Shown piece by piece: positions 1,536-29,081 of a stretch of 32,016 nucleotides of DNA; the first letter of the stretch is position 1; every line of letters starts with the position of its first letter. The stretch is from Candidatus Poseidoniales archaeon (GTDB taxonomy: Archaea > Thermoplasmatota > Poseidoniia > Poseidoniales > Thalassarchaeaceae), in assembly GCA_012959435.1 (NCBI GenBank), contig DUDF01000045.1:1-32016 (forward strand). The letters are read 5' to 3'. The notes beneath the pieces were generated by a model. That model was not told where the DNA came from. It made no database searches and worked only from the letters and a program-made list of their open reading frames with translations. A program made the translations under genes and the position numbers.

Positions 1536-2270
1536 ATGGCAGGAATCTTGTTACTAGTGGCTGTAGTAGTCGTAATCATACTGTTAATGCTAATTTTTTG
1601 GATAATTAGTGCATACAATCGTATGGTTGACTTGCGCAATGAAGTTGAAAATCAGTATCAAAATTTAGAGACACAGATAGGAGTCAAAGACCAAAAGATT
1701 GCATTTGTTGAAGAAACAGATTTAGCGCAATTAGGATTAGAGTCTTCGGTATATGACAAAATTATTGATGCGCGTAAAAAGTTTGCATCCGCTAAGAGCA
1801 GTGGTAATAGGGGCGATATGATGGCAGCAAATGGCCTGTTGGATTCAGTAATCCCACAGGTTCTTGCATTTGCAGAAGACAACCCTGAATTGACTTCTCA
1901 CCATGTATTAGTTGCTGGTCTTGAAGAAGGGGTTCAAGCAATAGCAAAGATGGCAAATGAAGTTGAGGAATACAATCAGGCAGCAAAGAATTACAACACA
2001 GTCACTGAGATGTTCCCCACTCTACTAGTTGCGCGCATGTTTGGTTTTGAGCGAGCTGACTTGTTTGATATATATTCTAGAGAACAAGTTGAACAGATGT
2101 TTGACCGTAGGGCAAGTCTTGGTAGTTTTGTTGAGTCAAAGAAATCCGATGCTGATTTGAAGACTGAGGGATTAAAGGATGAAATCGCTGCAACCGAGGC
2201 TGAAATCGAATTGATGAAGGCAAAGGCTGAACTTGCTGCAATGAAAGAGAAAATGGCTGAAGATGAGTAA
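1536..2270 (+). CDS. LemA family protein, membrane-anchored, with C-terminal coiled coil
   Basis: The 244-residue protein begins with a strong hydrophobic helix (about residues 4-26) followed by YNRMVDLRNEVENQYQNLETQI, which matches the LemA start. The diagnostic LemA end is clear: EYNQAAKNYNTVTEMFPTLLVARMFGFERADLFD, about residues 143-178. Family knowledge: LemA proteins have a short N-terminal tail, one membrane helix and a long helical bundle. Their biochemical role is unresolved. Unlike short bacterial LemA proteins, this one continues about 65 residues beyond the FGF motif into an Ala/Glu/Lys-rich coiled coil (about 200-244), possibly a partner-binding arm. Its stop codon directly abuts the stop of the convergent GIDE-domain gene. 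The ATG at 1536 places the hydrophobic helix right at the N-terminus. Confidence 0.85.
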   Translation: MAGILLLVAVVVVIILLMLIFWIISAYNRMVDLRNEVENQYQNLETQIGVKDQKIAFVEETDLAQLGLESSVYDKIIDARKKFASAKSSGNRGDMMAANGLLDSVIPQVLAFAEDNPELTSHHVLVAGLEEGVQAIAKMANEVEEYNQAAKNYNTVTEMFPTLLVARMFGFERADLFDIYSREQVEQMFDRRASLGSFVESKKSDADLKTEGLKDEIAATEAEIELMKAKAELAAMKEKMAEDE

Positions 2271-3824
2271 TCAAATTGCTGTTACCATTAACATAATGCT
2301 ACTGAGTATGAGGAAAGCGCTTGCACCATATCGGCTGATTGTAGAGGACTTAGCTTTCAGAACTGAAAACTCAGTTCCTTTTTGGATGACTGCATGTCGA
2401 CGAGGTGCATCTTCTCCAACTGCAACTAATGTGTGATGGACTCTGCTGGCATTTTCTGAAACAGTCCCCCTTGGTATCTCATCGTGTGGGCGACTTTTGA
2501 TGCGCGCCATTGTGTATACTGGGTCACCTAATTGTAATCCGTATAACTCCCATCTGTGTTTTCTCACATCACCTTTGGTGTAAAGGCCATTACCTCCTTT
2601 TCTGCCAGGGTTATCCGACCCCCAAATTTCATCAAGAGGTGAATTTCTGAATGTAGGTAGGTCAACTATTATCCCACCACTCCCATCATGTAACATGAAA
2701 GGAGAAGCACTACTGTCACCGCGGATCGATTTCCATGCACATTCGGTTTTAGTATGCCACTTTCCTTCACTATCTCGGTATCTAGTTTTCCAGCAATGGT
2801 ATATGCTGTATGACCATGACCATCCAACAAGATTGTCAAAAGTCCAATTAGAATCACGATAATTGTCTACATGTACGGTCTCTAAAGGCTCAAATGATGC
2901 AGGTCTAACTTGACCAACTAATTCATTATGACCTGCATCAATGAATTTTACAATTGATGTCACAGTATCCCATGCTTCCATCACTCTCTTATTCTGGAAA
3001 TAAGAGATGGTGACAGAAACAGCCCCAATTACTAGTCCAGCCAATAAGAATGGCATTGTTGATTGCCGCTCTTCACCTACAGGGACGGAAAGCCAAACTC
3101 CCACGAGGAACATTACCGAGAATGTATGGAATAGGAATCGAGATGTGATTTGTGGTGGCGTAGTATTGTATAATGCACGGTATCGATGATGGCGTGGGTG
3201 TTCACCAAAAATCATTTCTTGGGCGTTTAATGTATCAGCCTTTTTGATTACCTTTTTCATCTGTTCATATGCTTCTGCTTCAGTAGCAAATCTCTCATCT
3301 TCTTCACCATCAGTATAGGTGACCCATTCTTCGCCATCTTCTTTGACTTGTATAGCGGGGCCATCCTGCTCATAGCGAGCCAGAGGATCAGGTAGCCATG
3401 CACTTACTTTTTCATTCCATTCAACTCTATCTAAATGCCACTTTGAAGGGTCCATTGGTGGTAATGGCGGCACAGACCATGTACCACTTTGGCTACTATC
3501 TGGTAACATGTCTTTCATCATATTATTGAATGGATTAGGGCTAGCAAAACCGAGTATCATTAATCCGATTGAACCGTAAAAGAGTGGCTCTACTTGAGTG
3601 GACATAATGCTAGTCATTATTCCAAAACCAAGTGCAAGCGCACCCAACCCCCAAATAATCCAAGTTACAACTGAACTAGGCCAAGTCCAGCAGAAGTTTT
3701 TCGGGAGTAGTGGCTTTTTTTCCTCCCCCTCAATACCTGCACCATCAACAATATTGGACAATTTTTCATCTTCAACATTGGAATCAGAGGCAATATTTGC
3801 CAAATTTTCATCTTTGCCTCCCAT
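2271..3824 (-). CDS. GIDE-domain (MUL1-like BAM domain) multi-pass membrane protein
   Basis: This 517-residue protein has an acidic N-terminus, then hydrophobic helices near residues 48-68, 80-97, 228-247 and 253-272, and a C-terminal helix that ends the protein. Between the last two helices is a beta-rich region: HNELVGQVRPAS, then WSWSYSIYHCW, ASPFMLHDGSGGIIVDLP, and later LGDPVYTMARI and a final KGTEFSVLKAKS before the helix. This order (GxV start, xPFxLxDGxGxxxVD, GDPVYxxA, last helix) matches the GIDE/BAM domain known from the mitochondrial ligase MUL1. No RING finger is visible, as in prokaryotic GIDE proteins. An acidic insertion (about residues 165-200) lies between the first and second helix pairs. 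Convergent LemA shares the locus. The GIDE call is fairly secure; function is unknown. Confidence 0.68.
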   Translation of the reverse strand: MGGKDENLANIASDSNVEDEKLSNIVDGAGIEGEEKKPLLPKNFCWTWPSSVVTWIIWGLGALALGFGIMTSIMSTQVEPLFYGSIGLMILGFASPNPFNNMMKDMLPDSSQSGTWSVPPLPPMDPSKWHLDRVEWNEKVSAWLPDPLARYEQDGPAIQVKEDGEEWVTYTDGEEDERFATEAEAYEQMKKVIKKADTLNAQEMIFGEHPRHHRYRALYNTTPPQITSRFLFHTFSVMFLVGVWLSVPVGEERQSTMPFLLAGLVIGAVSVTISYFQNKRVMEAWDTVTSIVKFIDAGHNELVGQVRPASFEPLETVHVDNYRDSNWTFDNLVGWSWSYSIYHCWKTRYRDSEGKWHTKTECAWKSIRGDSSASPFMLHDGSGGIIVDLPTFRNSPLDEIWGSDNPGRKGGNGLYTKGDVRKHRWELYGLQLGDPVYTMARIKSRPHDEIPRGTVSENASRVHHTLVAVGEDAPRRHAVIQKGTEFSVLKAKSSTISRYGASAFLILSSIMLMVTAI

Positions 3825-3865: not shown

Positions 3866-5395
3866 TCATCGTGTCGCAAGTTTCCACTCCGAATCAATTT
3901 GTTGAATATCTCCTGCTCTTTGGTGGGCGAGAAGATGTGATAGCGTTTGGTCTATCTTGAGAATTGGGTGGGCATCGGGAGTGTCATCGTAAGCGTAGCC
4001 AGCAATTTGAGTGATTTCACTCATCCCATTTTTCACTGCATCTAATACCCTTGCATGTCTAGCCCTTCTATGTGTGAGATATCGATTCAGTAGTTTTTCT
4101 GGCACAGGGGAAAGAGGACCATGAGCAGGCAAAAGAATAGGGGGTTTCAAGTCACGCAATCTCTCAAGGCTAGAGAGATATTTATCCATGTCACCATCAC
4201 TTGGAGGCACTAGAATTGTACCTACCATCACAGCCATATCTCCTGAAATAATACCAACTTCATTTGATAGACAAATATGTCCTGGGCAGTGGCCAGGTGT
4301 TTCTAGAACATTCCATGTTCTCCCACTCAAGGTGAATGTATCACCATCTTTCAGAACCTTGTCAGTATCACACGTGGGGATCACGGTGTGAGTCTCTGAA
4401 GTTGCCCAAATCGGCGCTTGATAGATTTCTGAAATCCTAGCCAAATCACCAATATGATCAGGGTGGCGATGAGTGAAAATGGTTGCAATGACTTTGCTAC
4501 CGCGTGATTCTGCTGTTCGAATTCTTCGCTCTAGATATGCAAGCCCATCATCAGATTTTGCTGCTGGGTCAACGACTACTAAGTCGCCACCCATATCTCC
4601 AATGATGTAGCAATTAGTATGGGTGGCGGGAGGCAGCGTTTGGGTTGGAAGAGGGATACATTCAACGCTAGGAGCGAACTCTATTCGATGTTCACCACAA
4701 GGTGGATTTTCAGACATTGTTGATGTAGCTGATTCAATATCTCCTCCCGATTTCTTGAGAGATGCAATCATATCGCGAAGAAGAGTAATTTGAGGTGGTG
4801 GGATTCTCATTTCACTATTATTCCAAGCGTCAAGTGCTTGCATTGGAGTTAACCAACGAAACTCATCAAATTCACTTCGCCCACTGGGTAGTTTTGGCTC
4901 TGGTGGATTTGAGTCATGCAGGTGGAAGAAGCGATTAGTAAAGCGCATTGGGGCGAGAGGTGGCGTAGTTCGGATTGAGATTATTTTGAATCCGTTAGAA
5001 TTAGCACTAAGGCTACCTCGCTTTACATGAGGGTACCAGTTTTCACCATTTTCTATTACTTCATCTCGTACATTTTCGTCAACAAATACAATGCCATTTT
5101 CACTATTGGTCCAACCAACCTCTTCTACAATTTCCCGCATTAAAGCGGCAAGGGCAGCACCATCCTCATCAGCTGATAATTGAGGTAATTCATTGGCAGC
5201 AATGCGGTCAAATCGAGTCACGCCGCCACCAGGGAAGGCCCAGAAATCAGGAAATGAAGGCATCTGGGAAACTCTGTGGCAAAATAGGATTTCAGCCCCT
5301 TCATCACCATCACGTGTAATCACTAGAGATGCAGAAGGTCGTATCCGCGGGTCTGCCATCTCAGGCATCACGAATCCTTCGGGCACCTCGCTCAT
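3866..5395 (-). CDS. NUDIX hydrolase fused to LACTB2-like metallo-beta-lactamase-fold hydrolase
   Basis: Two domains are evident in one 509-residue chain (residue numbers from the ATG at 5395; the track uses a GTG four codons earlier). Residues about 15-210 are NUDIX: WAFPGGGV, then REIVEEVGW (87-95), the core of the Nudix box. The gap between the glycine strand and REUxEE is longer than canonical, as in NUDT19-like members, and the first box Glu is not in place. Residues about 235-509 are an MBL fold: HRHPDH (309-314), PGHCPGH (H369), ISGD (D386) and PAHG (H425) complete a two-metal site. The C-terminal tail, starting near YLTHRRARHARVLDAV, matches the helical end of LACTB2. Family knowledge: NUDIX enzymes cleave nucleoside-diphosphate-linked compounds, and LACTB2 is a single-strand RNA endonuclease. 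The substrate here is unknown. Confidence 0.85.
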   Translation of the reverse strand: MSEVPEGFVMPEMADPRIRPSASLVITRDGDEGAEILFCHRVSQMPSFPDFWAFPGGGVTRFDRIAANELPQLSADEDGAALAALMREIVEEVGWTNSENGIVFVDENVRDEVIENGENWYPHVKRGSLSANSNGFKIISIRTTPPLAPMRFTNRFFHLHDSNPPEPKLPSGRSEFDEFRWLTPMQALDAWNNSEMRIPPPQITLLRDMIASLKKSGGDIESATSTMSENPPCGEHRIEFAPSVECIPLPTQTLPPATHTNCYIIGDMGGDLVVVDPAAKSDDGLAYLERRIRTAESRGSKVIATIFTHRHPDHIGDLARISEIYQAPIWATSETHTVIPTCDTDKVLKDGDTFTLSGRTWNVLETPGHCPGHICLSNEVGIISGDMAVMVGTILVPPSDGDMDKYLSSLERLRDLKPPILLPAHGPLSPVPEKLLNRYLTHRRARHARVLDAVKNGMSEITQIAGYAYDDTPDAHPILKIDQTLSHLLAHQRAGDIQQIDSEWKLATR

Positions 5396-5418
5396 CAGAC
5401 TGCCCACGTAACCCCTCG

Positions 5419-5608: not shown

Positions 5609-5716
5609 TCAGAAGGACCAATATTCATGGCTTTACAAATCTAGTTTTATTTGTTCTTCTCAAATTTCATAGATGATTATAGTAGGGCAACATACTTGCG
5701 TAATTGCTTGGTCGAT

Positions 5717-7192
5717 ATGCATATGCGAGTGAAGGCATTGCTCATGTGCGTCTTGATGGCTTCGTTTTCACTATCAGGTTGCTTTGGTAACGATGGGCCG
5801 TCCGAAGTTATTGATGCCCCCTCAGGTCCCGAAGGTATCTTCGTGACAGGGGCAGACGGTATGCCCGTTGATGTTGAACCACTATCTATGAATTTCACCT
5901 TCAGTGATATTGGTGAAGATGCACCTGAACCAAGTATTGGCGTTACATCCAGTGGCTGCGTATTCTTCATTGCCCTTGAGAAGGTCATGCGTTCTTGTGA
6001 TTATGGCGAATCATGGGAGGACGTCGCAGGTCCGATGTGTGCATTCCAGACCAATGACCCGTGGGGCTGGGTTGATCCTGTTACCGACCGTATATTCGCT
6101 GTTCAGATGCAGGGTCTTGAGACATCTTGGATATGCTGGAGCGATGATGATGGTGAATCTTGGTTGGGCAATCCACATGACTCTGGTACGACTCCAATCA
6201 ATGATCACATCAAACTAGCAACCGGCCCATGGACTAGTAGTGGATACGGCATCCCTGGTCAAATCTCTCAAGCATTCTATGAGACGGCTGTGTACTATTG
6301 TTACAACAAACTCGCAGGCATCTTTTGTTTCACCAGTTTTGATGGAGGCGCTACATTTGACACCGGCGGACTAATCTTCGGTTTGGCCACCACCAATGGT
6401 GGCCTTCATGGAGCTATAACTTCCGCACCGGATGGTACTGTCTACGTAACTCCTAGAGTTGAAACACCCACCGTCATCGTTTCTGATGACAACGGGCTAT
6501 CTTGGTTTGATCGAACTATGGGTGAGGATGTCGGTACACCGTATCCACGCAAGAATTCGGAGGTTGCTACTGATACTGAATCCAATGCATACCACATCTG
6601 GACGGGGGCTGATGAAGGCGTTTACATGTCGAGGAGTACTGATTCGGGCCAGTCTTGGGAACAAACCAGCATTCGAATCAGCCCAGTCGAAGTCATCTCG
6701 ACTGTATTCCCTCAAGTTGATGCCGGTGACCCTGGAAGGATTGCGATTACCTATCTGGGGAGCGAGAACGCGAGTGAATTGAACCAATCCGACCTTGATG
6801 GGAATCCATGGGATGGCAATGCCCACTATGCGAATTCTAACGTCAGCTATTACCTGTATGTTACCTACAGTTTGAACGCGCTCGATGAAAACCCAGTATT
6901 CCACACTGTCCGCGCCTCAACTGATCCGGTGCAGGTTGGTAGCATATGTCTGAACAGCGGTGATTGCCGTGATATTGGTGGCTCGAATCGGAACTTGCTT
7001 GATTTCAACGACCTGCATATTGATCAAGAGGGTCGAGTTTACATCGCGTTCGCAGATGGTTGCACTGGCGATTGTGCTACTGGAAACAATTCCCAACCTG
7101 AAGATTCTCGGACCAGAAGAGGCATCATGTGTTATCTTGAAAGTGGGCCAAGTCTCTACGAATCATTAGGTGTTCTTGCAGAACCCAATTAG
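5717..7192 (+). CDS. Secreted lipoprotein with Asp-box (BNR/sialidase-like) beta-propeller
   Basis: The track start is a TTG at 5651. I prefer the ATG at 5717 (or 5723), because MRVKALLMCVLMASFSLSGCFGN is then a compact lipoprotein signal peptide with the lipobox LSGC. The mature chain contains at least five Asp boxes of the form S-x-D-x-G-x-S/T-W/F: SCDYGESWED, SDDDGESWLG, SFDGGATFDT, SDDNGLSWFD and STDSGQSWEQ. This is the signature of a six- or seven-bladed sialidase-type propeller. I could not assign sialidase catalytic Arg or Tyr residues, so enzyme activity is not claimed; many archaeal members probably only bind. Cysteine pairs such as CLNSGDC and CTGDC suggest extracellular disulfides. 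A TATA-like GATTATAGT lies 35-43 nt upstream. The stop is separated by one base from the convergent FMN reductase stop. Confidence 0.82.
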   Translation: MHMRVKALLMCVLMASFSLSGCFGNDGPSEVIDAPSGPEGIFVTGADGMPVDVEPLSMNFTFSDIGEDAPEPSIGVTSSGCVFFIALEKVMRSCDYGESWEDVAGPMCAFQTNDPWGWVDPVTDRIFAVQMQGLETSWICWSDDDGESWLGNPHDSGTTPINDHIKLATGPWTSSGYGIPGQISQAFYETAVYYCYNKLAGIFCFTSFDGGATFDTGGLIFGLATTNGGLHGAITSAPDGTVYVTPRVETPTVIVSDDNGLSWFDRTMGEDVGTPYPRKNSEVATDTESNAYHIWTGADEGVYMSRSTDSGQSWEQTSIRISPVEVISTVFPQVDAGDPGRIAITYLGSENASELNQSDLDGNPWDGNAHYANSNVSYYLYVTYSLNALDENPVFHTVRASTDPVQVGSICLNSGDCRDIGGSNRNLLDFNDLHIDQEGRVYIAFADGCTGDCATGNNSQPEDSRTRRGIMCYLESGPSLYESLGVLAEPN

Positions 7193-15999: not shown

Positions 16000-16057
16000 C
16001 GATTATCCTTAGACGGGTAATCGCAATCGGTATAGGTGAGTGTTGAATGTTGGGTCT

Positions 16058-19000
16058 ATGACCCAGAGGCAGGTAAGGCATTCTTTTATCCTCGTCATCC
16101 TTCTATTAGTGAGTACAGTAGGCATTCATTTTGCTATCGCTAACAATCCAAACTTACATGATGACGAATCGGTGTTGAGTTCTAGTCCGAACTCAATGGA
16201 AGTATTGATGTTAGGAAATTCCTACACTCAAGCGAATAATCTTGAATCATTGACAGAATCATTGTTAACAAATTATTTTGCTAATTCAAATGTTGACAGA
16301 TTAGCCGCAGGTGGTTTGAATCTAGCCGACCACTCAAGCAGAGTTCAAACATCTGGCCACCAGTGGAATACTACTCTCAACAATGGAAACTACGATTGGA
16401 TAGTGTTACAAGATCAAAGCCAAGTACCCAGTTTCCCCACCACTTCCCAATATTGGCAGGATAGTTTGTCAGGTGCAGTCGTTCTCAATGAAATGATTGA
16501 GGATAATGGTGCAGAAACGGTTCTCCTAATGACTTGGGGTCGGAGAAATGGCGACCAAGACAATCAGTGGCGCAATCCAGACTTTTTGACAATGCAGGCG
16601 AATTTGGATTCTGGTTATCGGCTATATGCAGAAAATGTCAGCACAGCCAGTCGTCCTGTGTGGCTAGCTCCAGCAGGATTAGCTTTCAAGCATATTTATG
16701 ATGAAATTGTGGCATCAGGTGGGACGCCTGAGAACTCAGGAACTTTGTTTGACAACCTCTATTCATCAGACGGAAGCCATCCCTCGTTATCCGGTAGTTA
16801 CCTAACATCTTGTGTGGTTTATGCAACTATTTCAGGGTCAAACCCAGTTGGCTTGAATGGGCCGTCAGGCCTTAGTTCATCACGCATTCTTGAATTGCAA
16901 GAAGCCGCTTCAGCAACTGTGTTTAACAATACTCAAAATTTAGTATATCCATGGCACCGGGCATCTTCCTCCACTTTTTCAAATGGTAATTCTAGTGTGG
17001 TTTTACATCCTGCCCTCAATGAGACAGCAGGATTGACTCACCGACCAGGTCAGCGGATTAATGGAGCCAGTCTTAATCTCACGGTTTCTGGTTTGCAGGA
17101 GTGGTCAAACACAACCAATCAAATGAGCGCTCTTGCTCCTAATTCTACCATGATTGGGACAACTGTTGACGCTAATAGGCAACTCCGATTAAACACTTCA
17201 AGTGGAGGAAGTGTGCCAAATTCAGGGACAAATAATACTGTAATATCTAGTTCGGTGACAATGAGTGGAAATCATTCTTATGATACCCTACACTTGTTAT
17301 GTGGGATTGTAAGTTGTGGTGAGATTTCAGTATCTGGGGGTCCATTACGCATATACGCTAATGTAATCAAAATTGAGTTAGGGACTTCAATAGTTGCTGA
17401 TGAATTAGTGGTTGGTAATTGGGGTGTAGGCGGTTCTACAGCGCGCGCATCAAATGGAAAAAGCCCAGGCGCAGGTGGTGGAAGTCACGGCACTAGTGGT
17501 GGCTCAGGTGGCGGCACAAATGGTGGTGCAGGTGGGACTACCTATGGTAATGGTTCAGAACCAGGTTCGTCAGGTGGTAATGTCACTTATATCAATCCAA
17601 ATGGCCAAGTAGCCAATGACGCGAATGGCGGTTACGGTGGCGGTGTCATTGAATTATATGCCCGCGTTATCTACATGAACGGTTCTATTTCTGCAAACGG
17701 TGGACGTGGTGATGATGGTGCTACACCTCCAGGTGGCAGCGGTCCAGGAGGCAGTGGAGCAGGTGGAGGAAGTGGCGGTTCAATTTCCCTCATGGCAAAT
17801 AGCGTCTACATCGGACCTAACGCTGTGTTAACTGCTGAAGGTGGTGATGGTGGTGATGGTGAGGATGGCTCCTGTGCGCCAGGTAATCCTTGCTTATTCA
17901 TGTATGATGGAGGCCACGGTGGCGGAGGTGGAGCTGGCGGAATTATCTTGCTAGCAACCACTGCTAATAATCTGAATAATAATGGGGCAACTAGCGTTAA
18001 TCCAGGTAGGGGAGGTGCTGGCGGCGCCCCATATGGCACTGGCTCACGCGGGACAGTGGGAAACAATGGCAACACTGGTTACTCGTTTACAGGGACATTC
18101 GCTGGATGGTCCGGTTCACTCGTCTATATCTACAATGGGAATTACACCAGCCCAATCCTAGGCAGACAGGGATTAATCAATGTTCATGGGGTAGTTAGGA
18201 TACCCAATAGCCAACCTGCTAACACCTCAATTGTAGCTACTTATCGATATTCAGTAGATGGCTCATCTTGGTCACAGTGGGACTCGTTCAATCTTACTTT
18301 TGAGGAACTTCCTGCATTCTCTCTGATTCAATTCAATTTTTGGCTATCAACAACCAATAATACTACAACTCCCAGAATTAATTCCATTGATTTAGATTTG
18401 TCAAACTGGTATTCAATAGATGATTTTAGACTATCAATATCTAACACGACGGGTGGTGCACCGTTCTGGTATTTCCCACATAATCTAGGGGTTGTTAGGG
18501 ATTCCAACCCACTTTTCAGCCAATTTGGTGGTCCGACAACTTTTCAAATATTTGTTCCAACCAACGCCACTCCAATTGGTTCTGGATGGATACATATTAT
18601 TCCACCAACTTTCAATGTTGATTCAAATATTACGATCTCACTCGCAGGCAATACTATTCTATCAATCAACAGTAGTCAATTCCCTGCAATGGGTATGACC
18701 ATTGAATTGAATAATTCACTGTTACAAACGAATTGGAAAAATAATTTATCCGGCACTAATGGGCCAGCCGGAATAGCGTGGGGTAATTTAGAATTAGATT
18801 GTTCAGCACAAGGCTCGTACATGGGTAATTTCGCTAGTTCATTCGTTATCGTACCCTATGAATTAACTGAAACATTAGGGGCGAATGGAACTATTGTAAC
18901 AGCACTAAATGACCATGTGAATAGGACTGGTGGGAGGTGGGCTGAAGCAACTTTCAGTACATTCCCAGTAATGAGCCAAGGCATCACATTAGATTCACAT

Positions 19001-21805
19001 GAGATTGTTTTAGACGCACTCTCGGTCAACTTCATAGACGATATTTTGCCGGAAGTTAGTGGTATCACCTTCTATGTGGACGGGCAAGAAGTCACTGAGG
19101 CTAGAGTTGGGGATTTGATTGAGATTCGTGTTAGTGTATTGGGCAATGAATCAGATGCCACGATTGAGTGGCATTTGCAAGGGCTCGGCAGCATCTCTTC
19201 ATGGCCTCCCGCCTCACTTTCATTCATGGGTTGGGATACTCTTCACAATAACTACATTACATTTTATGATACATCTCAACATTCTGCGGAGTATGGTGAT
19301 TCGATGGCATTATGGCTATGGATGACTGATGCTGCAGGAAACTCACGCACACCGTCTGGAGTTGGTGCGTGGTACGAGACATTGATTCTAAGGCCGGTCT
19401 TCCCCGATTTCGAGTTAATGACAGTGGGTGGCTGCGAGCGAGTCATTGTCGCGGTATGTGAGACGCAGCCAGGGGTTGAATTGGTATTCCAAGCGTCTGC
19501 AGTTCAAGATCGGTCAGATCTCAACATGTTTGTTCATATCATCAATCCAACTGATACTGGTGATGATTTCGTGGTTCCTTTGTATTGGCATGATATATCA
19601 AAAGTTTATGATGGTTCAATTTCCCTTTCCACTGCTGAACTTGGTTGGTGGGATATCAGATTCAGAGTTATAGATATTAATTTGAATGAAGAAAACTGGT
19701 CATCAGCGGTGATTGATAAAGTCCATGTTATTGATACAACCTCGCCAGATGAAGGTCAATTAACTGTTGTAAGTGAAGATAATTCAAGCCTTTCTTGGGA
19801 AGTATCTGGCCAATGGCTAGCCACCTCTCGTGACAACTCAACTGCAAGTTTAGAAATCAATGGCCCCGATGGTTTTTCTATGTCTATTCCACTATCTGAC
19901 CCTGTAATGAACGACCCACTCAACATTTCTTCCTATGTTGCTCTTGGTTCAGAAGAAACAATGGGGATTGGTGCCTCTAGTGCTAATAACAGTACAACTG
20001 GAATTATATTTGAAGGATTAAACCAAACTTGGCCGGGACTAACTCTGACGAATATCTCAGATTCATGGGGTTCAGTTACGACTTTCCTCTCTAAACAGTA
20101 TGATATTAAGGCTGCAAATCCAGATATTATTACAATAATTCCAATCCGTGACTACAAATCCTCATCAACTAGTATTTGGCAATCATCTTATCCAACATTG
20201 CTTGATGCTCTTGCGCCGACTGGTGCTCAAATCTTTATTGGAGTTATGGAAATTGATCCTGATTATATCTGCCACATTGGTTCGGGGCCAGCTGGTTGCT
20301 ACCAATATGGAGAGTTCCAGACTATTACTGAAAAGAGCAAGATTATCACGGAAATAGCCTCATCAAGACCTTGGGTGACTTTAATTCCACTATCTGATGA
20401 CGGCCCAGAGCACCCGGAGTGGATTGATGGCAATGATGATTTCACAGATGCTGGGCACCGTTCCATTGCAACTGAAATGTTGCATGGGATAAATGGCAAA
20501 TTAGATACTAGATACTTCAGTATAGAGGCAAATTATACACAAGATTTGACTACACTTTCACCAGGGGTGTACGAATTTGAAATGCAAGTGATTGATGAGT
20601 TTGGTAACATCGCTGATGATGAAGTGCCAGGCCCCGATGCAACCATGTCACTGCTTCCGGCTGATGGCATTTTGTCATTGATAATTCAGTCACCAGTACC
20701 TACCGTTTTGCATCCGGGGTCTTTTGATATCGCATATGATGCGATATGTTCAATCGATTGTTCAATGGAACTTGAAATATTCCTAAATGGAGAATTAATT
20801 GAAGTGATTAATCCAACTGGCGGAGCAGGAACTTACACCGTCACAATCCCAACAATTGGAACGCATACCATTTCCATGGTTCTTTCAACTTCTGATTGGC
20901 AAGTCACTTCACAGACAGCATCTTTGGAAGTTTTTGCAACGCCACCACCGGCACCGGAATGGCACATCTCGTGTAGTAACTATGATGAGGAACTTACATT
21001 GCCAAGTATTGCATACAATGGGAAAATAGGAAATTTTTCTTCATCAACGCACTTTATCAAATGTACAGTTACAAATAGTGGTGATGCTAATGGATTTGTT
21101 CACCTTTCTCCCAATTCGTCTTTTGATCCGTTTGAATGCACGTCAACAGTGTTTGAGATATCTCCCGCTGGACGGGCAGAATTTGATTGTACTGCAGAAG
21201 AGAGTGATGAAACGTCGGGAATATTCCCACTTTTGTTAGAATTTGAACAGGTTGGTGAATCTGCTAACACATCAATTGGAGGCTGGGATACTACTGTAGT
21301 AATGTTGTCACCACGTTTTGTCGCAGATGAGATTGTTAGTGATAATCAGCTAGAAGGAGAAGATGGCACAACAGCAGAGGTTGCAGGGAAAACACCGTTT
21401 AATTGGATGATTTCAGCATTCGTTTTGATTTTGGTCGGGATTGGTGCAATCAGTATAATGTTTGCAATGCGCGATAGAAGAGAGCCAGAGATTCTAGAAG
21501 TCAATGAGGATTCGCTATTCAATGATAAAATGAGGACCTCGGAAGAATCTGCAGAATTGGAAACTATTCATCCTTCAATTGTAGCAGAGCAGGATGAACC
21601 AACGGAACTAACTCCTGTCAGTCCAGAACTCAATCCCATTGTGGACCATGTTATCTCGGAAGGTGAGACAGAGATTCTTGATTCATATCTAAATCTACCC
21701 AGTGGTGGGGAATATCAGGTGACCGATGGGGTTACTGTATACGAGCACCCAGATGGGTCTCGATGGCAACAAGAAGAAGGCGGTAAATTTCACCGGCTTG
21801 CTTGA
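16058..21805 (+). CDS. Giant secreted SGNH-hydrolase/glycine-rich/Ig-like surface protein, C-terminal membrane anchor
   Basis: About 1915 residues. A signal peptide (MTQRQVRHSFILVILLLVSTVGIHFAIA) is followed by an SGNH hydrolase domain of DUF4886 type: VLMLGNSYTQ with nucleophile Ser55, YDWIVLQDQS, and DGSHPS with Asp238/His241. Residues about 460-680 are very glycine-rich repeats alternating with beta strands (GGVIELYARVIYMNGSISANGG), suggesting a beta-helix or adhesin-like stalk. Ig-like modules follow. Near residues 1290-1465 is a second SGNH-like segment, SSYVALGSEETMGIGAS to DFTDAGHRSIA, with no Ser at the nucleophile position. N-x-S/T sequons are abundant. A membrane helix (about 1783-1806) precedes a cytoplasmic tail ending in a small aromatic/glycine module (YEHPDGSRWQQEEGGKFHRL). 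The TTG at 16040 is an alternative start. The domain layout is secure; the substrate (a surface or environmental glycan ester?) is not. Confidence 0.85.
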   Translation: MTQRQVRHSFILVILLLVSTVGIHFAIANNPNLHDDESVLSSSPNSMEVLMLGNSYTQANNLESLTESLLTNYFANSNVDRLAAGGLNLADHSSRVQTSGHQWNTTLNNGNYDWIVLQDQSQVPSFPTTSQYWQDSLSGAVVLNEMIEDNGAETVLLMTWGRRNGDQDNQWRNPDFLTMQANLDSGYRLYAENVSTASRPVWLAPAGLAFKHIYDEIVASGGTPENSGTLFDNLYSSDGSHPSLSGSYLTSCVVYATISGSNPVGLNGPSGLSSSRILELQEAASATVFNNTQNLVYPWHRASSSTFSNGNSSVVLHPALNETAGLTHRPGQRINGASLNLTVSGLQEWSNTTNQMSALAPNSTMIGTTVDANRQLRLNTSSGGSVPNSGTNNTVISSSVTMSGNHSYDTLHLLCGIVSCGEISVSGGPLRIYANVIKIELGTSIVADELVVGNWGVGGSTARASNGKSPGAGGGSHGTSGGSGGGTNGGAGGTTYGNGSEPGSSGGNVTYINPNGQVANDANGGYGGGVIELYARVIYMNGSISANGGRGDDGATPPGGSGPGGSGAGGGSGGSISLMANSVYIGPNAVLTAEGGDGGDGEDGSCAPGNPCLFMYDGGHGGGGGAGGIILLATTANNLNNNGATSVNPGRGGAGGAPYGTGSRGTVGNNGNTGYSFTGTFAGWSGSLVYIYNGNYTSPILGRQGLINVHGVVRIPNSQPANTSIVATYRYSVDGSSWSQWDSFNLTFEELPAFSLIQFNFWLSTTNNTTTPRINSIDLDLSNWYSIDDFRLSISNTTGGAPFWYFPHNLGVVRDSNPLFSQFGGPTTFQIFVPTNATPIGSGWIHIIPPTFNVDSNITISLAGNTILSINSSQFPAMGMTIELNNSLLQTNWKNNLSGTNGPAGIAWGNLELDCSAQGSYMGNFASSFVIVPYELTETLGANGTIVTALNDHVNRTGGRWAEATFSTFPVMSQGITLDSHEIVLDALSVNFIDDILPEVSGITFYVDGQEVTEARVGDLIEIRVSVLGNESDATIEWHLQGLGSISSWPPASLSFMGWDTLHNNYITFYDTSQHSAEYGDSMALWLWMTDAAGNSRTPSGVGAWYETLILRPVFPDFELMTVGGCERVIVAVCETQPGVELVFQASAVQDRSDLNMFVHIINPTDTGDDFVVPLYWHDISKVYDGSISLSTAELGWWDIRFRVIDINLNEENWSSAVIDKVHVIDTTSPDEGQLTVVSEDNSSLSWEVSGQWLATSRDNSTASLEINGPDGFSMSIPLSDPVMNDPLNISSYVALGSEETMGIGASSANNSTTGIIFEGLNQTWPGLTLTNISDSWGSVTTFLSKQYDIKAANPDIITIIPIRDYKSSSTSIWQSSYPTLLDALAPTGAQIFIGVMEIDPDYICHIGSGPAGCYQYGEFQTITEKSKIITEIASSRPWVTLIPLSDDGPEHPEWIDGNDDFTDAGHRSIATEMLHGINGKLDTRYFSIEANYTQDLTTLSPGVYEFEMQVIDEFGNIADDEVPGPDATMSLLPADGILSLIIQSPVPTVLHPGSFDIAYDAICSIDCSMELEIFLNGELIEVINPTGGAGTYTVTIPTIGTHTISMVLSTSDWQVTSQTASLEVFATPPPAPEWHISCSNYDEELTLPSIAYNGKIGNFSSSTHFIKCTVTNSGDANGFVHLSPNSSFDPFECTSTVFEISPAGRAEFDCTAEESDETSGIFPLLLEFEQVGESANTSIGGWDTTVVMLSPRFVADEIVSDNQLEGEDGTTAEVAGKTPFNWMISAFVLILVGIGAISIMFAMRDRREPEILEVNEDSLFNDKMRTSEESAELETIHPSIVAEQDEPTELTPVSPELNPIVDHVISEGETEILDSYLNLPSGGEYQVTDGVTVYEHPDGSRWQQEEGGKFHRLA

Positions 21806-22582: not shown

Positions 22583-22736
22583 TATGCGGTGGGCTGGGGA
22601 ACTAACACTCAGAAACAATAATCGTTGTACTGCGTGACAATTGGTATAGCATTTTTCACACACGCGCACGAAAGGGGTAATAAGAAAGCCCAAAGTCGGT
22701 TGGTCTTGTATGTCGAGCCATACCTTTGAACTGAAT

Positions 22737-25700
22737 ATGAACAAGGCACGGGTCAAAGCCGTCGCACTAGTCGCACTGATGGTATTGTCAACTTCGTTGG
22801 CAGTGCTGGATGTTTCGGCGAGTAATTCGAAGCAATACCCAGTAACAAGGAATCCTCTGGACCTTGCGACTGGTGACTTTGATTGTGATGGTGATGACGA
22901 TATTGTGACCGCGAGCGAGATGGGGAACTTCTTGTCCATTCTCTGGAATGATAATGGAAATTACCAAGATAGAACTGACCTTTGGGTTTCTAACAACGCA
23001 AGCCGCCGTGCTGGATTCACTGATATCGCTGATGTTGGTGGTGTTGAAGTGGGCGACATTGATGATGATGGAAAGGACGACATAGTATTCTACCAAGGAA
23101 ACATTCAGGTTTTTGGTGGTACAGAAGTAATCCGTGGAAATCTAACGGTCTTGAGGAATGAGGACTGTGCTGGGACTTTCAGCGAGGATGCAGTTTATAC
23201 AATGGGTGACATCGTATGGAACTTCCAAATTGGCGATGTTAACGGTGATGGAGCAGATGATATTGTAGCTCTTGAATTACAAGATTTGGCTTCAGGTACA
23301 CAGCGTCTCTTAACTTATCTTGGTGGTTCTCAGCGTAACAATATTGCGACAAATCATAAGATCACAACTCTTGATAATCTCGCTAACAAGGTCTACGCAG
23401 ACATTCGGCTCGGAAATTTCGGCGAGGCTGTTGTGGGCGGTCCTATCGGAAACGATTGCGATGATTTAGATGCATTCTTGCATTATTGGCCAGGGTTCAA
23501 TGCAGCAACAGGATTCTCAGACGGTGATTGGGATAACGTTTCTATCGTTGAATTCGAATGTACGCTCGATACATTCGCAGCATGGAATGACCCTAACAAG
23601 CAACACACAATCAAGTTGAATTCCGAAAGTGGTAGCTTTGACATCGCTGATGAAGATAATGATGGCAAGATTGACACTATGGCAATCACGAATTTGACAA
23701 CTGTTGTGTTACAGAGTTGTGCAGCGGCTCCTTGCCCATCACAGAATAATTGGCAACAAATTGCAGTTTCTCCGACTATAGGGTCATTTATACCGGCTTC
23801 AGTTGAATTACAGGATGTCAATCAAGATGGAAGCATTGACTTAGTTGTTCCAACCACTTCCACCATTACCAGTTTGGTCGGCCAAAGTGGTAATACTGTG
23901 ACATCATATTCGATGGATAACCTAGAGGAATTGAATACTGTTCAAATTATTCTATCTGATGGCAGTGGTGGATACTATCAACCACAATCAATGCCAGTCG
24001 GCCGTAGACCAACTATGGTTCTTGTAGGGCAGTTTGCTGGTGGTCCAACCAGCGCTCTTGACTTGGCAATCGGTAACCGTGACTACACTTACCAATACTC
24101 AAATGGTGCACTACACATTGATTCAAAGGGGTGTGCTTTTGACCCACTAAACCCGCAACTGAATGGTTTTGGATGTGGTAATCTCGATGCGATCTCTGTT
24201 GTTCAACTTGATAACGAAGACGTTGGGATATCAGGCATGACTGTTTCACCAGCAAGTTTCAATCCAGATACTGGGAGGATGACGATTGGTGAAGGTACCC
24301 GTGAGGTGAATGTTACTGTGCAAAACACAGGGCTTAATTCCATCACTGGAAGCGTGGATGTTGATGTTTCAGTCAAGGAAATCACCGGTGGAGTAGACAC
24401 GACAGTTTACTCAAATGACTATGAAACAGCGGGAATTTCTAACTGTGGTACAGGTTGTACTTGGGCTTATGCAGATTATGACCAAGAGTCATATTTCTGG
24501 CATGAAGAGACAGCATCAAACCATTCTGCTAATCCAGAAGGTGACGAAGCGGATGTCAATCCGACTGACTACATGTGGGCAGGGACATGGCAACCGAATG
24601 CAACTGCTGGGAACCAGATGGAAAGCGGATATCTATCTAATCAAGATGATGGACTAATCTTGGAAGACATCGATTTGACCGGTGCTGACGCAGCATCACT
24701 CGAACTTGATTTGTATTGTAGTGTAGGTTACTCTGTTGTCCATTACGTGAACTCTCAAGGTTCAATCTCGGGAATGGTGATTTACGATGATTCGTGTAAC
24801 ATTGATGTTTATACTGATGATGAGGGATGGGTCCCTATCATCTATCGTGGTGGTTATGATGCTGTAAGACTTAACGAGTATTACAGTAATGGTGGTTCAG
24901 TAGAATACACAAGTAGAATTTACCATATCTTCGGTACAAATTACAGTTGGATGGACCTCAAAGGAAACAATTCACTGGATTTGACACCATGGGCTGGAGA
25001 TACAATTGACCTCCGATTCCGTTTCCGTACTGGATACGAAGGAAGTGTAGGACGTGACAACACTTCACGTAACACTCAGTGGGACGGTATGGCGTTTGAC
25101 AACTTAACAATCAAGAAGACAATCACACAGTTCGGCCAAATCCAGCCAGTTTCACAAAGTCTGAACCTCAATAACTTCGCCCCAGGCGACGAGCAAACCA
25201 TTACCCTAAACGCATATTTCACAAATGGTACTGAATACATGGTTGAGAGTGCTCTAACATCTCCTACTGGATTCAGTAATGAGGATGCAAGCAACGATGA
25301 TATGCGTTGGAAGATGGACGTGCTAAACTTGTATGACCCAGCGGTTAAGGAGATTACATCTCAAGACCGAGGTGCGTTGTATGCATCTGGAGATATGCCG
25401 ATTGATGTTATTGTTGAGAATGCTGGAAACACCGTGATGGATTTTGATATCAAAGCAACAGTGTATACTGCTCAGCCAACTGCTCTTTTCACCAACCCGT
25501 GTAAAGATGTTGAGGACTTCGAGCCAAGCGCATGTGCTTACATGTACGGTGATGACAGTGATGGTGATGGTGGAATCGTAGATGATACTGCTTCAAATGT
25601 CCAAAACGCAATTGTCCCAGGTAACCGACCATTGTTTGGTGGTAACGCATACTGGTTCGGCCATCCTGATTCAGGATACGGTGACAATTGGAATGAGTCA

Positions 25701-28700
25701 ATGACGCTACAAACTATTGATTTGCGTAATATGGGTGGCGATTTCGCTTACCTGACCTTCGATTACTTTGCAGAGGCTGATTACCTCAGTGATCAAGATG
25801 GTAATATTGTTGGAGTCAATGAGTATGGTGCGCTAGAAATCAGCTGGCGCAAAGGCTCACAAACTTACCAAGGCCTTGTCTATGGTTCGTGGAATGACTA
25901 CAATGAGAATGGTATTATTGGTGGTCCAAACCAAAGTTGTGAAGACATCGATGACGATGGTGTCTTTGACGAAGTTGAGTATATGGGAGACCACACTGAC
26001 CAAGACAATTATGTTATATGGTTTGATAGCGAAGGTATCGTGAAGTCAGTCACCCTTGACTTGACTCACATCGTGATACAGAACCGTACTGGTCCTTCCA
26101 ACAACTGGCGAACCGAGTGTACGTCAATGGATGGTGCTGAAGTTGATTTGACTTTCCGCTTCATGACAAATAGTGATGGTATTAATGGTAGTTCTGGATT
26201 CGCTGGTTTCGCTCTTGACAATATTACTGTGCAGGAGTATACATTTACTTCCGACCAAACTTACTACACATCTGTGACCAACATTGATGCTCGCGAGGAG
26301 CGTAATGTCTCCATTGGAGTACATAACTTCCAGCAGGGTATTTATCGAATTGATGTAATGAGCATATTTGACAATCAAACAGCTGGAAATAATTGGACCA
26401 ATACTAAGGAAGTAGCTCTTGGTAACAACGTGTCAAAGGTTATCTTCGAGGTTGCGTCTGTTGATGTAACATTGTTCCGTCCTGATGTTCTAGATTGTGT
26501 TGAAGATGTTGATTATGACTGCGTCTATCCGTTTGACGCTGCACTTACTCACCAGTTTACCGTACCATTGAGCAATGGTGTATTAGCAGGTGACTACAAT
26601 ATCTACCTAGATATCGTTGATTCCTCCGGGACGACAGTATCTTCAACAACTTCCACTAACAGCCCGATAACTCTTGAATCACATGAGAATAATCAAGCAA
26701 CTTTCCAGCCTTTCAACGGATGGATAGACGGCGAGACCTATGACTTACGATTCTTCGCACAACTTGTTGATGGAACCGCATCAGGAAACCAGCGCAACTT
26801 CACAATCACATTTGCAAGCATGGTGGATGTAGCGATTCTCTCAAACCCAACTGACCAGAATCGGTTGCAGAGTGTGAAGATGGACTTGCAGGCAATGGGA
26901 ATGACCTACACTCAGTTTAGACAGAGTGATTGGGATACCTACCTCGCTAGTGGGTGGTTGGACCATTACGACAAGGTCCTATTGCCTTGGCAGACTACTG
27001 CTAATGTCCAAGCAGGTAATTACTATGGCCGACTTGGAGAATCAGCAACTGAGAACATCCTCAAGAATTACATGATGGCTGGTGGTACTGTTGAAATCCA
27101 TCTAGGTCCTTATGCTGAAGGATTGGATGATAATCTACTGTATAACATGGTTATTCTAAACCGTGACACAGCAGGTAATCAAGTTGAGCACAGTGATCTC
27201 AACATTGCTGACCCATACCACCCTCTTCTTATGAATGTCAGTAGCACTGCATGGCTTGGTATGAACAATGGTAACTATGTTGCAAATGCCGCACTTTCAA
27301 CAGCAAGTGCAGGTTCAAACAAACTTCCAACACCATGTGGTGGGCTTATCAATGCACAGCAGGGTACATTCCACAGTCTACTAAACCATGACTCAGATTC
27401 TAGCATGCACATGCTAGCAACTTGTGGAGTTGGTAGTGGTGGTCTTATTGTAAGTACAATTGATGTAGAGAACCCAAGTGTCTCAGAACCATATGGGAGC
27501 ACTTCGTCACCTCTTCGTAGCAACCTGCTTGCATACCAAGTATCTCCTTACCCAACTGAACTCGGTATCGCTGGTAACGGATGGGATTTAACCATCAATG
27601 GCGCAGCCCCATCAGAAGCTGATAACTCAGGAGAATATTCTGATACAGTTTACCTTAAGTCAGGCAGTGTAGTTGATTTCGGATTTACATCAACTCTAAC
27701 TGGATTGAATGCAGACTGGGAAATCCGAGGTGCAACTGACTGGAACCGCAATCAGTTCCCACCCAACACAGAATTCGCTCACAGAGGGGATGATTCTCAT
27801 CAGGTAACTTTCTGCCTTATTGATACAAATCCTGACGGCACTGGTTGTATTCAAGATGCAACATGGCAAGTAACACTGTATCTTCACGATGCTGAAGGAC
27901 ACACAAGAATCACTCACATTACTCTACAAACAAACGATATCTTGGCAGACGAGTCAGACCCAATTGCTAATGTAACTGTAGAGGAGCACCCGCTCTACGC
28001 TGATAGTTTGGAGGACCATGGAACCAAGGAATCAGGTGGGTCAACTTGGCCAGTCTATCTTGCAAAGTTATCTGCCAGTGGAGATGTGAAGGTCAAGTTC
28101 GATGCTTGTGGTTCACAAGACCCCGATGCAATGGGAGATGAGAGCGGAATCACACTCTACACATGGAAGGTTTACCAGGATTACCCATGGAATAACCCAT
28201 CCAACGATTATGACGGACACACCTTTGAGCGCACTGCGGCAATGGGTTGTGACTGGACTTACACTTTCTACAATCAGACTGCAGACCCATCAGGATTTGC
28301 TGAGAACCCAATCCGAATTGAATTGGAAGTTATTGACCGAGCAGGTCGTGACTCAGAGAAGGTCAAGATGTACTTCGTAGTGGTCCCAGAGGACTACGGC
28401 GATGACCAACCAGTTTGGGAAATCAACACTCCATTAGATGGTTCTACTCAGACAGGAGAATATGTCTGGGTTAATGGTACTGTGATATCAGGAAGCGAGA
28501 ATGGAGATGTAGCAATTGAAGCAGCACTCGATTCATCAATTCTAAACGAGACTATTGACAACAAGGTACAGCAATTGCGAGATGGGAAATTCGCAGATGT
28601 TCGTAACCTTGGAGATGGTTCAGGATTCAGTTTGAAGTTGAAGTTAGAGGACCTATACGATGAGAACGGCTCTACCCAGACTATCTATCTGAAGATTGTT

Positions 28701-29081
28701 GAAGGTGATGGTCAGACATGGACTCTATATCAGCAGATTGATGTCAATCTACCACCCGTTGAAGTCAATGTTGACCCTTGTGTTGCAGACCCATCTGCCG
28801 AAGGATGTGGTGATGGAACTACCGACACACAAGGTGGCGGAATGTCCAACACACTACTCTACACTGGACTTGGCGCAGTTGCTCTACTAGTAATTGTCAT
28901 CATTACTATGCTCGTTCTACGAATGCGTGGCGGTAAGGAAGATGTTAGTGGATTCGCTGGAGTCGATGATATGGACCCACAGGAAGCATATGTTCAGCAG
29001 TTGATTGCACAAGGATATCCAGAGGATACTGCACGACAATACGCAGCCCAATATGCAGGGCATTTCCAAGATCAACAGTAG
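22737..29081 (+). CDS. Giant FG-GAP/VCBS-repeat surface protein with C-terminal membrane anchor and UBA-like tail
   Basis: About 2114 residues from the ATG at 22737; the track ATG at 22710 adds nine residues before the signal peptide MNKARVKAVALVALMVLSTSLAVLDVSA. Residues about 40-420 hold FG-GAP/VCBS calcium-binding repeats: DFDCDGDDDIV, DIDDDGKDDIV, DVNGDGADDIV, DEDNDGKIDTM and DVNQDGSIDLV. A CARDB-like Ig module follows, then two long jelly-roll-like domains ending WDGMAFDNLTI and FAGFALDNITV. Residues about 1362-1600 (VDVAILSNPTDQNRLQSVKMDLQAMGMTYTQF and YMMAGGTVEIHLG) look like a class I glutamine-amidotransferase or ThuA-type Rossmann fold without an obvious catalytic Cys. PKD/Ig-like domains, a membrane helix (about 2039-2062) and a cytoplasmic tail (EAYVQQLIAQGYPEDTARQYAAQY) follow. 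The role is probably adhesive or binding. Confidence 0.87.
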   Translation: MNKARVKAVALVALMVLSTSLAVLDVSASNSKQYPVTRNPLDLATGDFDCDGDDDIVTASEMGNFLSILWNDNGNYQDRTDLWVSNNASRRAGFTDIADVGGVEVGDIDDDGKDDIVFYQGNIQVFGGTEVIRGNLTVLRNEDCAGTFSEDAVYTMGDIVWNFQIGDVNGDGADDIVALELQDLASGTQRLLTYLGGSQRNNIATNHKITTLDNLANKVYADIRLGNFGEAVVGGPIGNDCDDLDAFLHYWPGFNAATGFSDGDWDNVSIVEFECTLDTFAAWNDPNKQHTIKLNSESGSFDIADEDNDGKIDTMAITNLTTVVLQSCAAAPCPSQNNWQQIAVSPTIGSFIPASVELQDVNQDGSIDLVVPTTSTITSLVGQSGNTVTSYSMDNLEELNTVQIILSDGSGGYYQPQSMPVGRRPTMVLVGQFAGGPTSALDLAIGNRDYTYQYSNGALHIDSKGCAFDPLNPQLNGFGCGNLDAISVVQLDNEDVGISGMTVSPASFNPDTGRMTIGEGTREVNVTVQNTGLNSITGSVDVDVSVKEITGGVDTTVYSNDYETAGISNCGTGCTWAYADYDQESYFWHEETASNHSANPEGDEADVNPTDYMWAGTWQPNATAGNQMESGYLSNQDDGLILEDIDLTGADAASLELDLYCSVGYSVVHYVNSQGSISGMVIYDDSCNIDVYTDDEGWVPIIYRGGYDAVRLNEYYSNGGSVEYTSRIYHIFGTNYSWMDLKGNNSLDLTPWAGDTIDLRFRFRTGYEGSVGRDNTSRNTQWDGMAFDNLTIKKTITQFGQIQPVSQSLNLNNFAPGDEQTITLNAYFTNGTEYMVESALTSPTGFSNEDASNDDMRWKMDVLNLYDPAVKEITSQDRGALYASGDMPIDVIVENAGNTVMDFDIKATVYTAQPTALFTNPCKDVEDFEPSACAYMYGDDSDGDGGIVDDTASNVQNAIVPGNRPLFGGNAYWFGHPDSGYGDNWNESMTLQTIDLRNMGGDFAYLTFDYFAEADYLSDQDGNIVGVNEYGALEISWRKGSQTYQGLVYGSWNDYNENGIIGGPNQSCEDIDDDGVFDEVEYMGDHTDQDNYVIWFDSEGIVKSVTLDLTHIVIQNRTGPSNNWRTECTSMDGAEVDLTFRFMTNSDGINGSSGFAGFALDNITVQEYTFTSDQTYYTSVTNIDAREERNVSIGVHNFQQGIYRIDVMSIFDNQTAGNNWTNTKEVALGNNVSKVIFEVASVDVTLFRPDVLDCVEDVDYDCVYPFDAALTHQFTVPLSNGVLAGDYNIYLDIVDSSGTTVSSTTSTNSPITLESHENNQATFQPFNGWIDGETYDLRFFAQLVDGTASGNQRNFTITFASMVDVAILSNPTDQNRLQSVKMDLQAMGMTYTQFRQSDWDTYLASGWLDHYDKVLLPWQTTANVQAGNYYGRLGESATENILKNYMMAGGTVEIHLGPYAEGLDDNLLYNMVILNRDTAGNQVEHSDLNIADPYHPLLMNVSSTAWLGMNNGNYVANAALSTASAGSNKLPTPCGGLINAQQGTFHSLLNHDSDSSMHMLATCGVGSGGLIVSTIDVENPSVSEPYGSTSSPLRSNLLAYQVSPYPTELGIAGNGWDLTINGAAPSEADNSGEYSDTVYLKSGSVVDFGFTSTLTGLNADWEIRGATDWNRNQFPPNTEFAHRGDDSHQVTFCLIDTNPDGTGCIQDATWQVTLYLHDAEGHTRITHITLQTNDILADESDPIANVTVEEHPLYADSLEDHGTKESGGSTWPVYLAKLSASGDVKVKFDACGSQDPDAMGDESGITLYTWKVYQDYPWNNPSNDYDGHTFERTAAMGCDWTYTFYNQTADPSGFAENPIRIELEVIDRAGRDSEKVKMYFVVVPEDYGDDQPVWEINTPLDGSTQTGEYVWVNGTVISGSENGDVAIEAALDSSILNETIDNKVQQLRDGKFADVRNLGDGSGFSLKLKLEDLYDENGSTQTIYLKIVEGDGQTWTLYQQIDVNLPPVEVNVDPCVADPSAEGCGDGTTDTQGGGMSNTLLYTGLGAVALLVIVIITMLVLRMRGGKEDVSGFAGVDDMDPQEAYVQQLIAQGYPEDTARQYAAQYAGHFQDQQ

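Follow-up and report, generated by a model that had tools for sequence, protein, structure and literature searches.

A LemA-family protein and an enlarged RING-less GIDE-domain protein share inheritance and sequence evolution in Poseidoniales archaea

The LemA and GIDE genes and their products

The window analysed here, a stretch of 32,016 nucleotides, is the entire contig (C45) of a Poseidoniales archaeal genome, G000, which is about 77% complete. It contains genes encoding a LemA-family protein and a GIDE/BAM-domain protein as direct convergent neighbours. This arrangement had been described in a sequence-only reading, whose coordinates proved exact; the two stop codons abut, with 0 bp between them. 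Because the genes are convergent and abutting, a shared operon is ruled out for this pair. The features of both genes are listed below, with evidence in brackets.

1536..2270, + strand: LemA-family membrane protein, 244 aa, ATG start (open reading frame; matches to PF04011 and PDB entry 2etd)
1539..1607, + strand: LemA N-terminal transmembrane helix, residues 2-24 (hydropathy 3.58; AF2 helix, pLDDT 85-93)
1734..2087, + strand: LemA helical-bundle domain, residues 67-184 (Pfam match to PF04011)
2136..2267, + strand: LemA C-terminal charged helix, candidate coiled coil, residues ~201-244 (alignment; AF2 helix; heptad register)
2271..3824, - strand: GIDE/BAM-domain multi-pass membrane protein without RING, 517 aa, ATG start (open reading frame; hhalign family match)
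3600..3671, - strand: GIDE TM1, residues 52-75 (hydropathy, AF2)
3537..3590, - strand: GIDE TM2, residues ~79-96 (hydropathy 1.2; AF2 helix 81-94)
3144..3536, - strand: GIDE soluble acidic insert between TM2 and TM3, residues 97-227 (alignment; low AF2 confidence)
3078..3143, - strand: GIDE TM3, residues 228-249 (hydropathy, AF2)
2985..3056, - strand: GIDE TM4, residues 257-280 (hydropathy, AF2)
2346..2963, - strand: GIDE (BAM) beta domain, residues 288-493 (profile matches, AF2)
2739..2795, - strand: GIDE Cys344 and Cys362, across a predicted beta hairpin (all-or-none covariation)
2277..2342, - strand: GIDE TM5, residues 495-516 (hydropathy, AF2)

Downstream of LemA, positions 2360-2377 can form a hairpin resembling a terminator, which was rejected as such because it falls within GIDE coding sequence and because some relatives lack its T run. 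No anti-phage defence match was obtained for the window pair in a PADLOC profile search. Adjoining the GIDE gene, positions 3866-5407 (- strand) encode a single protein with an N-terminal NUDIX and a metallo-beta-lactamase domain (MBL-NUDIX), which flanks the LemA/GIDE slot in many relatives. Positions 5651-7192 (+ strand) encode a secreted protein or lipoprotein with BNR repeats (weak Pfam matches), relatives of which also adjoin LemA in G049 and G127. The window additionally carries two very large open reading frames on the + strand, one of 1921 aa without any Pfam match (16040-21805) and one of 2123 aa with a match to FG-GAP repeats (22710-29081).

The LemA assignment was confirmed by a single-sequence Pfam search, in which residues 67-184 matched PF04011 with 62 bits against a gathering cut-off of 26.2, and by a PDB match to Thermotoga LemA (2etd, E 3.5e-14). 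The MamQ model NF040966 scored 51 bits, far below its cut-off of 250. Like the other members of the family, Thermotoga LemA and MamQ included, the window protein has one membrane helix at its N-terminus and then a helical bundle, as predicted from hydropathy and from AF2, the confidence of which was medium to low outside the membrane helix. By contrast to the family, the subtype found in genera g1 and g5, to which the window LemA belongs, has a charged, candidate coiled-coil helix in place of the usual C-terminus, and the motif RYDxxPNLxxxVKGYxxHE common in LemA relatives (usually RYDMIPNLV..VKGYA) is replaced in it. Despite this replacement the window protein is, as judged by its profile match, a LemA, the motif not being a gathering criterion. 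The C-terminal helix was modelled at residues 205-243 with low-to-medium confidence, and its best heptad register has 67% L/I/M/V/A at positions a and d. The unusual helical extension noticed earlier is thus present, and alignment showed it to be limited to the window subtype, being common to g1 and g5, and to a related variant in other genera (G003, G046 and G079).

Assignment of the second protein to the GIDE family required comparison at the family level. As a single sequence it scored 12.4 bits against PF12483, below the cut-off of 23.6, and a single-sequence NCBIfam search gave nothing above cut-off, so that the profile check of the sequence-only reading failed for the isolated protein. 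It succeeded with the family alignment (A1), assembled from relatives and comprising 42 sequences: its profile matched nine canonical archaeal GIDE proteins with an hhalign probability of 99.3% (E 1.2e-20), 26 of the 42 members matched PF12483 at E <= 0.1 (best 1.6e-7), and several orthologues exceeded the Pfam cut-off (28.8, 29.3 and 25.3 bits). On account of these three lines of sequence comparison, GIDE homology is established for the family and, via the family, for the window protein. A PDB fold search with the AF2 model of the GIDE protein yielded no match at E <= 0.001 (best 0.04), and the best E value in a PDB profile search with the family was 0.28. No GIDE relatives were found on viral contigs. 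The AF2 model matched uncharacterised proteins of Tupanvirus, Klosneuvirus and Satyrvirus in BFVD (E 1e-6 to 1e-8), and on the basis of these model matches giant viruses may encode GIDE-domain proteins.

Members of the GIDE/BAM family (PF12483), which comprises archaeal RING-less GIDE proteins and eukaryotic MUL1/MAPL/MULAN, share with the window protein a membrane helix, the GIDE beta domain and a C-terminal membrane helix. The window protein differs from them in its extra helices, its acidic soluble insert, the absence of a RING and its Pfam score below cut-off; since the canonical archaeal members compared have only about 250-320 aa, against 517 in the window protein, the Poseidoniales form is enlarged. 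Five membrane helices are predicted, arranged as a TM1-TM2 hairpin, the acidic insert, a TM3-TM4 hairpin, the beta domain and TM5. In the AF2 model the beta domain, flanked by TM4 and TM5 according to both hydropathy and AF2, had pLDDT values mostly of 82-96 in blocks of ten residues, with a single block of 52 at 451-460. The membrane association claimed earlier for both proteins is in line with these predicted helices, and the acidic insertion claimed for the GIDE protein was likewise found, with 24 D+E versus 15 K+R in residues 96-230.

The window GIDE protein contains only three cysteines, Cys45, Cys344 and Cys362. Among 42 GIDE homologues, Cys344 and Cys362 were both present in 23, both absent in 19 and in no case present singly, with six changes on the tree, covariation of the kind typically seen with a disulfide or some other function of paired residues; the two face each other in a predicted hairpin. 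In three g5 orthologues (L005, L007 and L008) the insert contains a DnaJ-type zinc knuckle, CxxCxGxG..CxxCxG, which is absent from the window protein; this motif scored below the Pfam cut-off and was seen directly in the sequence. With regard to topology, the two hairpin loops carried the least positive charge (family net means -0.9 and -2.9), and the insert and TM5 flanks were positive. From these charges, the positive-inside rule would predict that the acidic insert and the GIDE domain are cytoplasmic; the zinc knuckle in the g5 orthologues fits a reducing compartment. Running counter to this, the all-or-none cysteine pair could argue for an outside location of the GIDE domain, comparable to that in MUL1/MAPL, where the domain is exoplasmic, in the mitochondrial intermembrane space.

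Co-occurrence, gene order and joint evolution in relatives

The presence of both genes was surveyed in 146 Poseidoniales genomes, which are MAGs mostly 75-97% complete and in which joint absence of neighbouring genes can be inflated. Both genes were found in 88 genomes, GIDE only in 1, LemA only in 5 and neither in 52. A species tree of 100 genomes, built from L1, L10 and a third conserved protein, was used to correct for phylogeny. It gave 14 independent contrasts for the presence of LemA, and GIDE changed the same way in 12.5 of them on average and the opposite way in 0.1 (median p 4.9e-4). One of the LemA-only genomes, G109, is a contig-edge case, with LemA ending at the edge; in G065 both frames, LemA and GIDE, are cut at their 3' side by a contig end, as expected from an assembly break at the convergent junction. 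Co-occurrence was also observed with the two genes on different contigs (e.g. G003, G028, G046, G048, G054, G079 and G111), so that contig loss explains the pattern at most in part, and whole clades were devoid of both genes. TPM showed no such association in the same genomes, 14 of the 25 with TPM having LemA versus 93/146 overall. M48 (HtpX-type) peptidases were nearly absent from Poseidoniales, with weak matches in 3/146 genomes, and were found in 10/14 control genomes; neither an M48 nor a TPM match was found in G000 (~77% complete) or in four other sampled g1 genomes.

Two further LemA loci were recorded in this survey. A second LemA in a genome of family f2 (L054, on G059:C58) has a score and frame length nearly as in the f1 genome G079 and is probably a MAG contamination. 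In G139, LemA (L112) directly follows thyA-folA-like genes without GIDE, in a context that in genus g3 holds GIDE followed by LemA.

Adjacency of the pair, as seen in the window, was conserved in related genomes in a gene-neighbourhood survey. Convergent adjacent pairs were found in nine Poseidoniales genomes, and co-directional pairs, with GIDE preceding LemA at gaps of 0-88 bp, in seven (G021, G034, G040, G058, G067, G056 and G083). In the convergent arrangement, most g1 and g5 genomes have 0-4 bp between the two genes and G122 has 43 bp; the GIDE frame predicted in G132 shares 120 bp with LemA. Most f2 genomes have the two genes 2-12 kb away from each other or on separate contigs. In genus g1, G000, G017 and G044 have the diverged convergent pair in a slot bounded by the MBL-NUDIX and NFACT genes, and in G063 only the NFACT side of this slot was recovered, the contig ending inside GIDE. 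The same slot in G122 is occupied by a pair of the typical subtype in flipped order, both partners differing together.

Ten sampled Thermoplasmatota outside the order had GIDE, which was directly followed by LemA in seven of them (G146, G218, G241, G313, G321, G327 and G329), with gaps of -82 to 37 bp in those for which the starts of both genes were determined. In the remaining three, LemA was 1.6 kb away (G174), on another contig (G172) or without any match (G178). Other LemA genes of Thermoplasmatota adjoin M48 or TPM genes. Beyond this phylum GIDE was sampled on plasmids only, by tblastn, and haloarchaeal GIDEs alone were found; none of six such plasmid GIDE genes had an adjacent LemA, and the pairing is therefore not universal. 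The recurrence of the pair in prokaryotic genomes, stated in the sequence-only reading, stands for Thermoplasmatota and fails at these six loci. On a Natronorubrum plasmid (L146) the GIDE gene adjoins an M48 peptidase gene, and on a Salinirubellus plasmid (L147) a prohibitin gene. The neighbours of archaeal LemA/GIDE loci were mostly metabolic genes.

The two protein trees mirrored each other beyond the species tree. Patristic distances of LemA and GIDE correlated at 0.88, and the partial Spearman value given the species tree was also 0.88, reached in 0/2000 permutations; without the diverged clade the partial value was 0.56, likewise reached in 0/2000, the gene trees being quick trees without bootstraps and the permutation of distance matrices leaving some shared history in these values. 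No branch of the LemA tree is longer than that of the g1/g5 subtype, whose branch in the GIDE tree is among the longest as well, and the window pair is of this most diverged subtype, in which the predicted coiled-coil tail of LemA accompanies the enlarged five-helix GIDE protein. In both trees the pair of G058 groups with genus g3, away from its genus-mate G046 (AU p 7e-9 and 4e-51), and the flanking genes of G058 differ from the g3 context. This is as if the pair had been transferred as a unit, contamination of the MAG by a single contig being the alternative. Family membership and the joint inheritance, loss, rearrangement and sequence evolution of LemA and GIDE are thus computational observations.

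Function of the pair and alternative explanations

It is highly likely that LemA and GIDE are functionally linked, and because they co-occur, are repeatedly adjacent in different orientations and have mirrored trees, they very probably constitute one membrane system, as had been supposed from the window alone. The opposite reading, in which the pair has no joint function, would attribute the pattern to linked inheritance on the same DNA segment combined with missing contigs. It draws on the incompleteness of Poseidoniales MAGs, in which adjacent genes go missing together, and on the loss of adjacency in most of family f2. However, neither linkage nor missing contigs would account for co-occurrence across different contigs, for whole clades without both genes, for adjacency in varied contexts and orientations that extends outside the order, for trees mirrored beyond the species tree or for TPM lacking such an association, and we consider this reading very improbable.

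As an explanation of the whole, we tentatively propose, at somewhat less than even likelihood, a two-protein membrane module in which LemA is a scaffold that recruits GIDE for the assembly or quality control of membrane complexes. LemA, a single-span protein with a helical bundle, would serve as scaffold or adaptor, and the GIDE protein, multi-pass and with its beta-sheet domain positioned at the membrane surface, would be its dedicated partner. At the cytoplasmic membrane, oligomers of LemA would draw in the GIDE protein, which there would assemble, monitor or protect membrane protein complexes as a form of envelope quality control. Physical interaction of the two proteins and the orientation of their soluble domains are inferred in this model, and the quality-control role would follow by analogy, the LemA/GIDE pair possibly filling the place that a pairing of LemA with an M48 (HtpX-type) peptidase has elsewhere. 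In other Thermoplasmatota, LemA likewise lies beside a gene for a membrane-linked partner, M48 or TPM; in Poseidoniales, from which M48 is nearly absent, the partner is instead GIDE. Across the phylum the neighbour of LemA varies between M48 peptidase, TPM and GIDE genes, which suggests that LemA is a scaffold with interchangeable membrane partners. MamQ, described as the sole member of the LemA family with a link to a known process, functions in the early biogenesis of the magnetosome membrane and in protein recruitment (PMC4902198), and it is because of this role and of the alternating neighbours that the LemA-scaffold model is favoured.

Three other roles for the pair were weighed against the LemA-scaffold model. 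In one, the pair would shape membranes or form vesicles, LemA scaffolding and GIDE organising curvature or the lateral sorting of proteins. MamQ is needed for regular magnetosome membranes (PMC4902198) and MAPL marks mitochondria-derived vesicles (PMC3783979), as their cargo, which together with the genetic linkage of the two families speaks for such a role; nevertheless, aberrant membranes still form upon deletion of mamQ (PMC4902198) and nothing at the archaeal loci, with their mostly metabolic neighbours, points to vesicle formation, so that we regard this role as unlikely. GIDE could alternatively sense redox state or metals at the membrane and signal through LemA, with the all-or-none cysteine pair (23/19/0 of 42, six changes) and the DnaJ-type knuckle of the three g5 orthologues as sensing elements. 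Absence of the cysteine pair from almost half of the homologues implies that this would not be a general mechanism, and no output domain is visible, which leaves the sensor with a rather small probability. The sequence-only reading had considered a relation to the ancestry of the organellar MUL1 system, and the GIDE domain is indeed homologous to the PF12483 family, MUL1 included. An E3-ligase-like or ubiquitin-type system ancestral to MUL1 is nonetheless extremely unlikely and that claim was not upheld: unlike MUL1/MAPL, a eukaryotic E3 ligase with a C-terminal RING finger, the window protein has three cysteines only and ends with TM5 (residue 517), leaving no RING; a published phylogeny groups the BAM/GIDE proteins of prokaryotes in a single clade, separate from eukaryotic MAPL, the prokaryotic proteins lacking RING (PMC4457424); and no match to E2 (PF00179) or to the MUL1-type RING (PF13920) was found in 60 family genomes, a weak argument given that the controls were also silent.

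A conserved role of the BAM domain has been stated to be an open question (PMC4457424), and no paper linking LemA with GIDE/BAM was found in the open-access literature. A more far-reaching and speculative reading, which we hold to be improbable, is that LemA and GIDE are an obligate, previously undescribed archaeal two-protein membrane system, that GIDE/BAM proteins ancestrally worked with LemA on membrane protein complexes, and that the RING of MUL1 was added later and the original partner lost.

Of LemA and the GIDE/BAM domain, molecular function is known only for MamQ and for RING-bearing eukaryotic MUL1. The genetic link reported here gives each family a named partner, by which function becomes testable, and Poseidoniales offer a clean case, because M48 is hardly available there as an alternative partner for LemA, which persists nearly always together with GIDE. 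The finding also offers a partner for the RING-less form of the GIDE domain.
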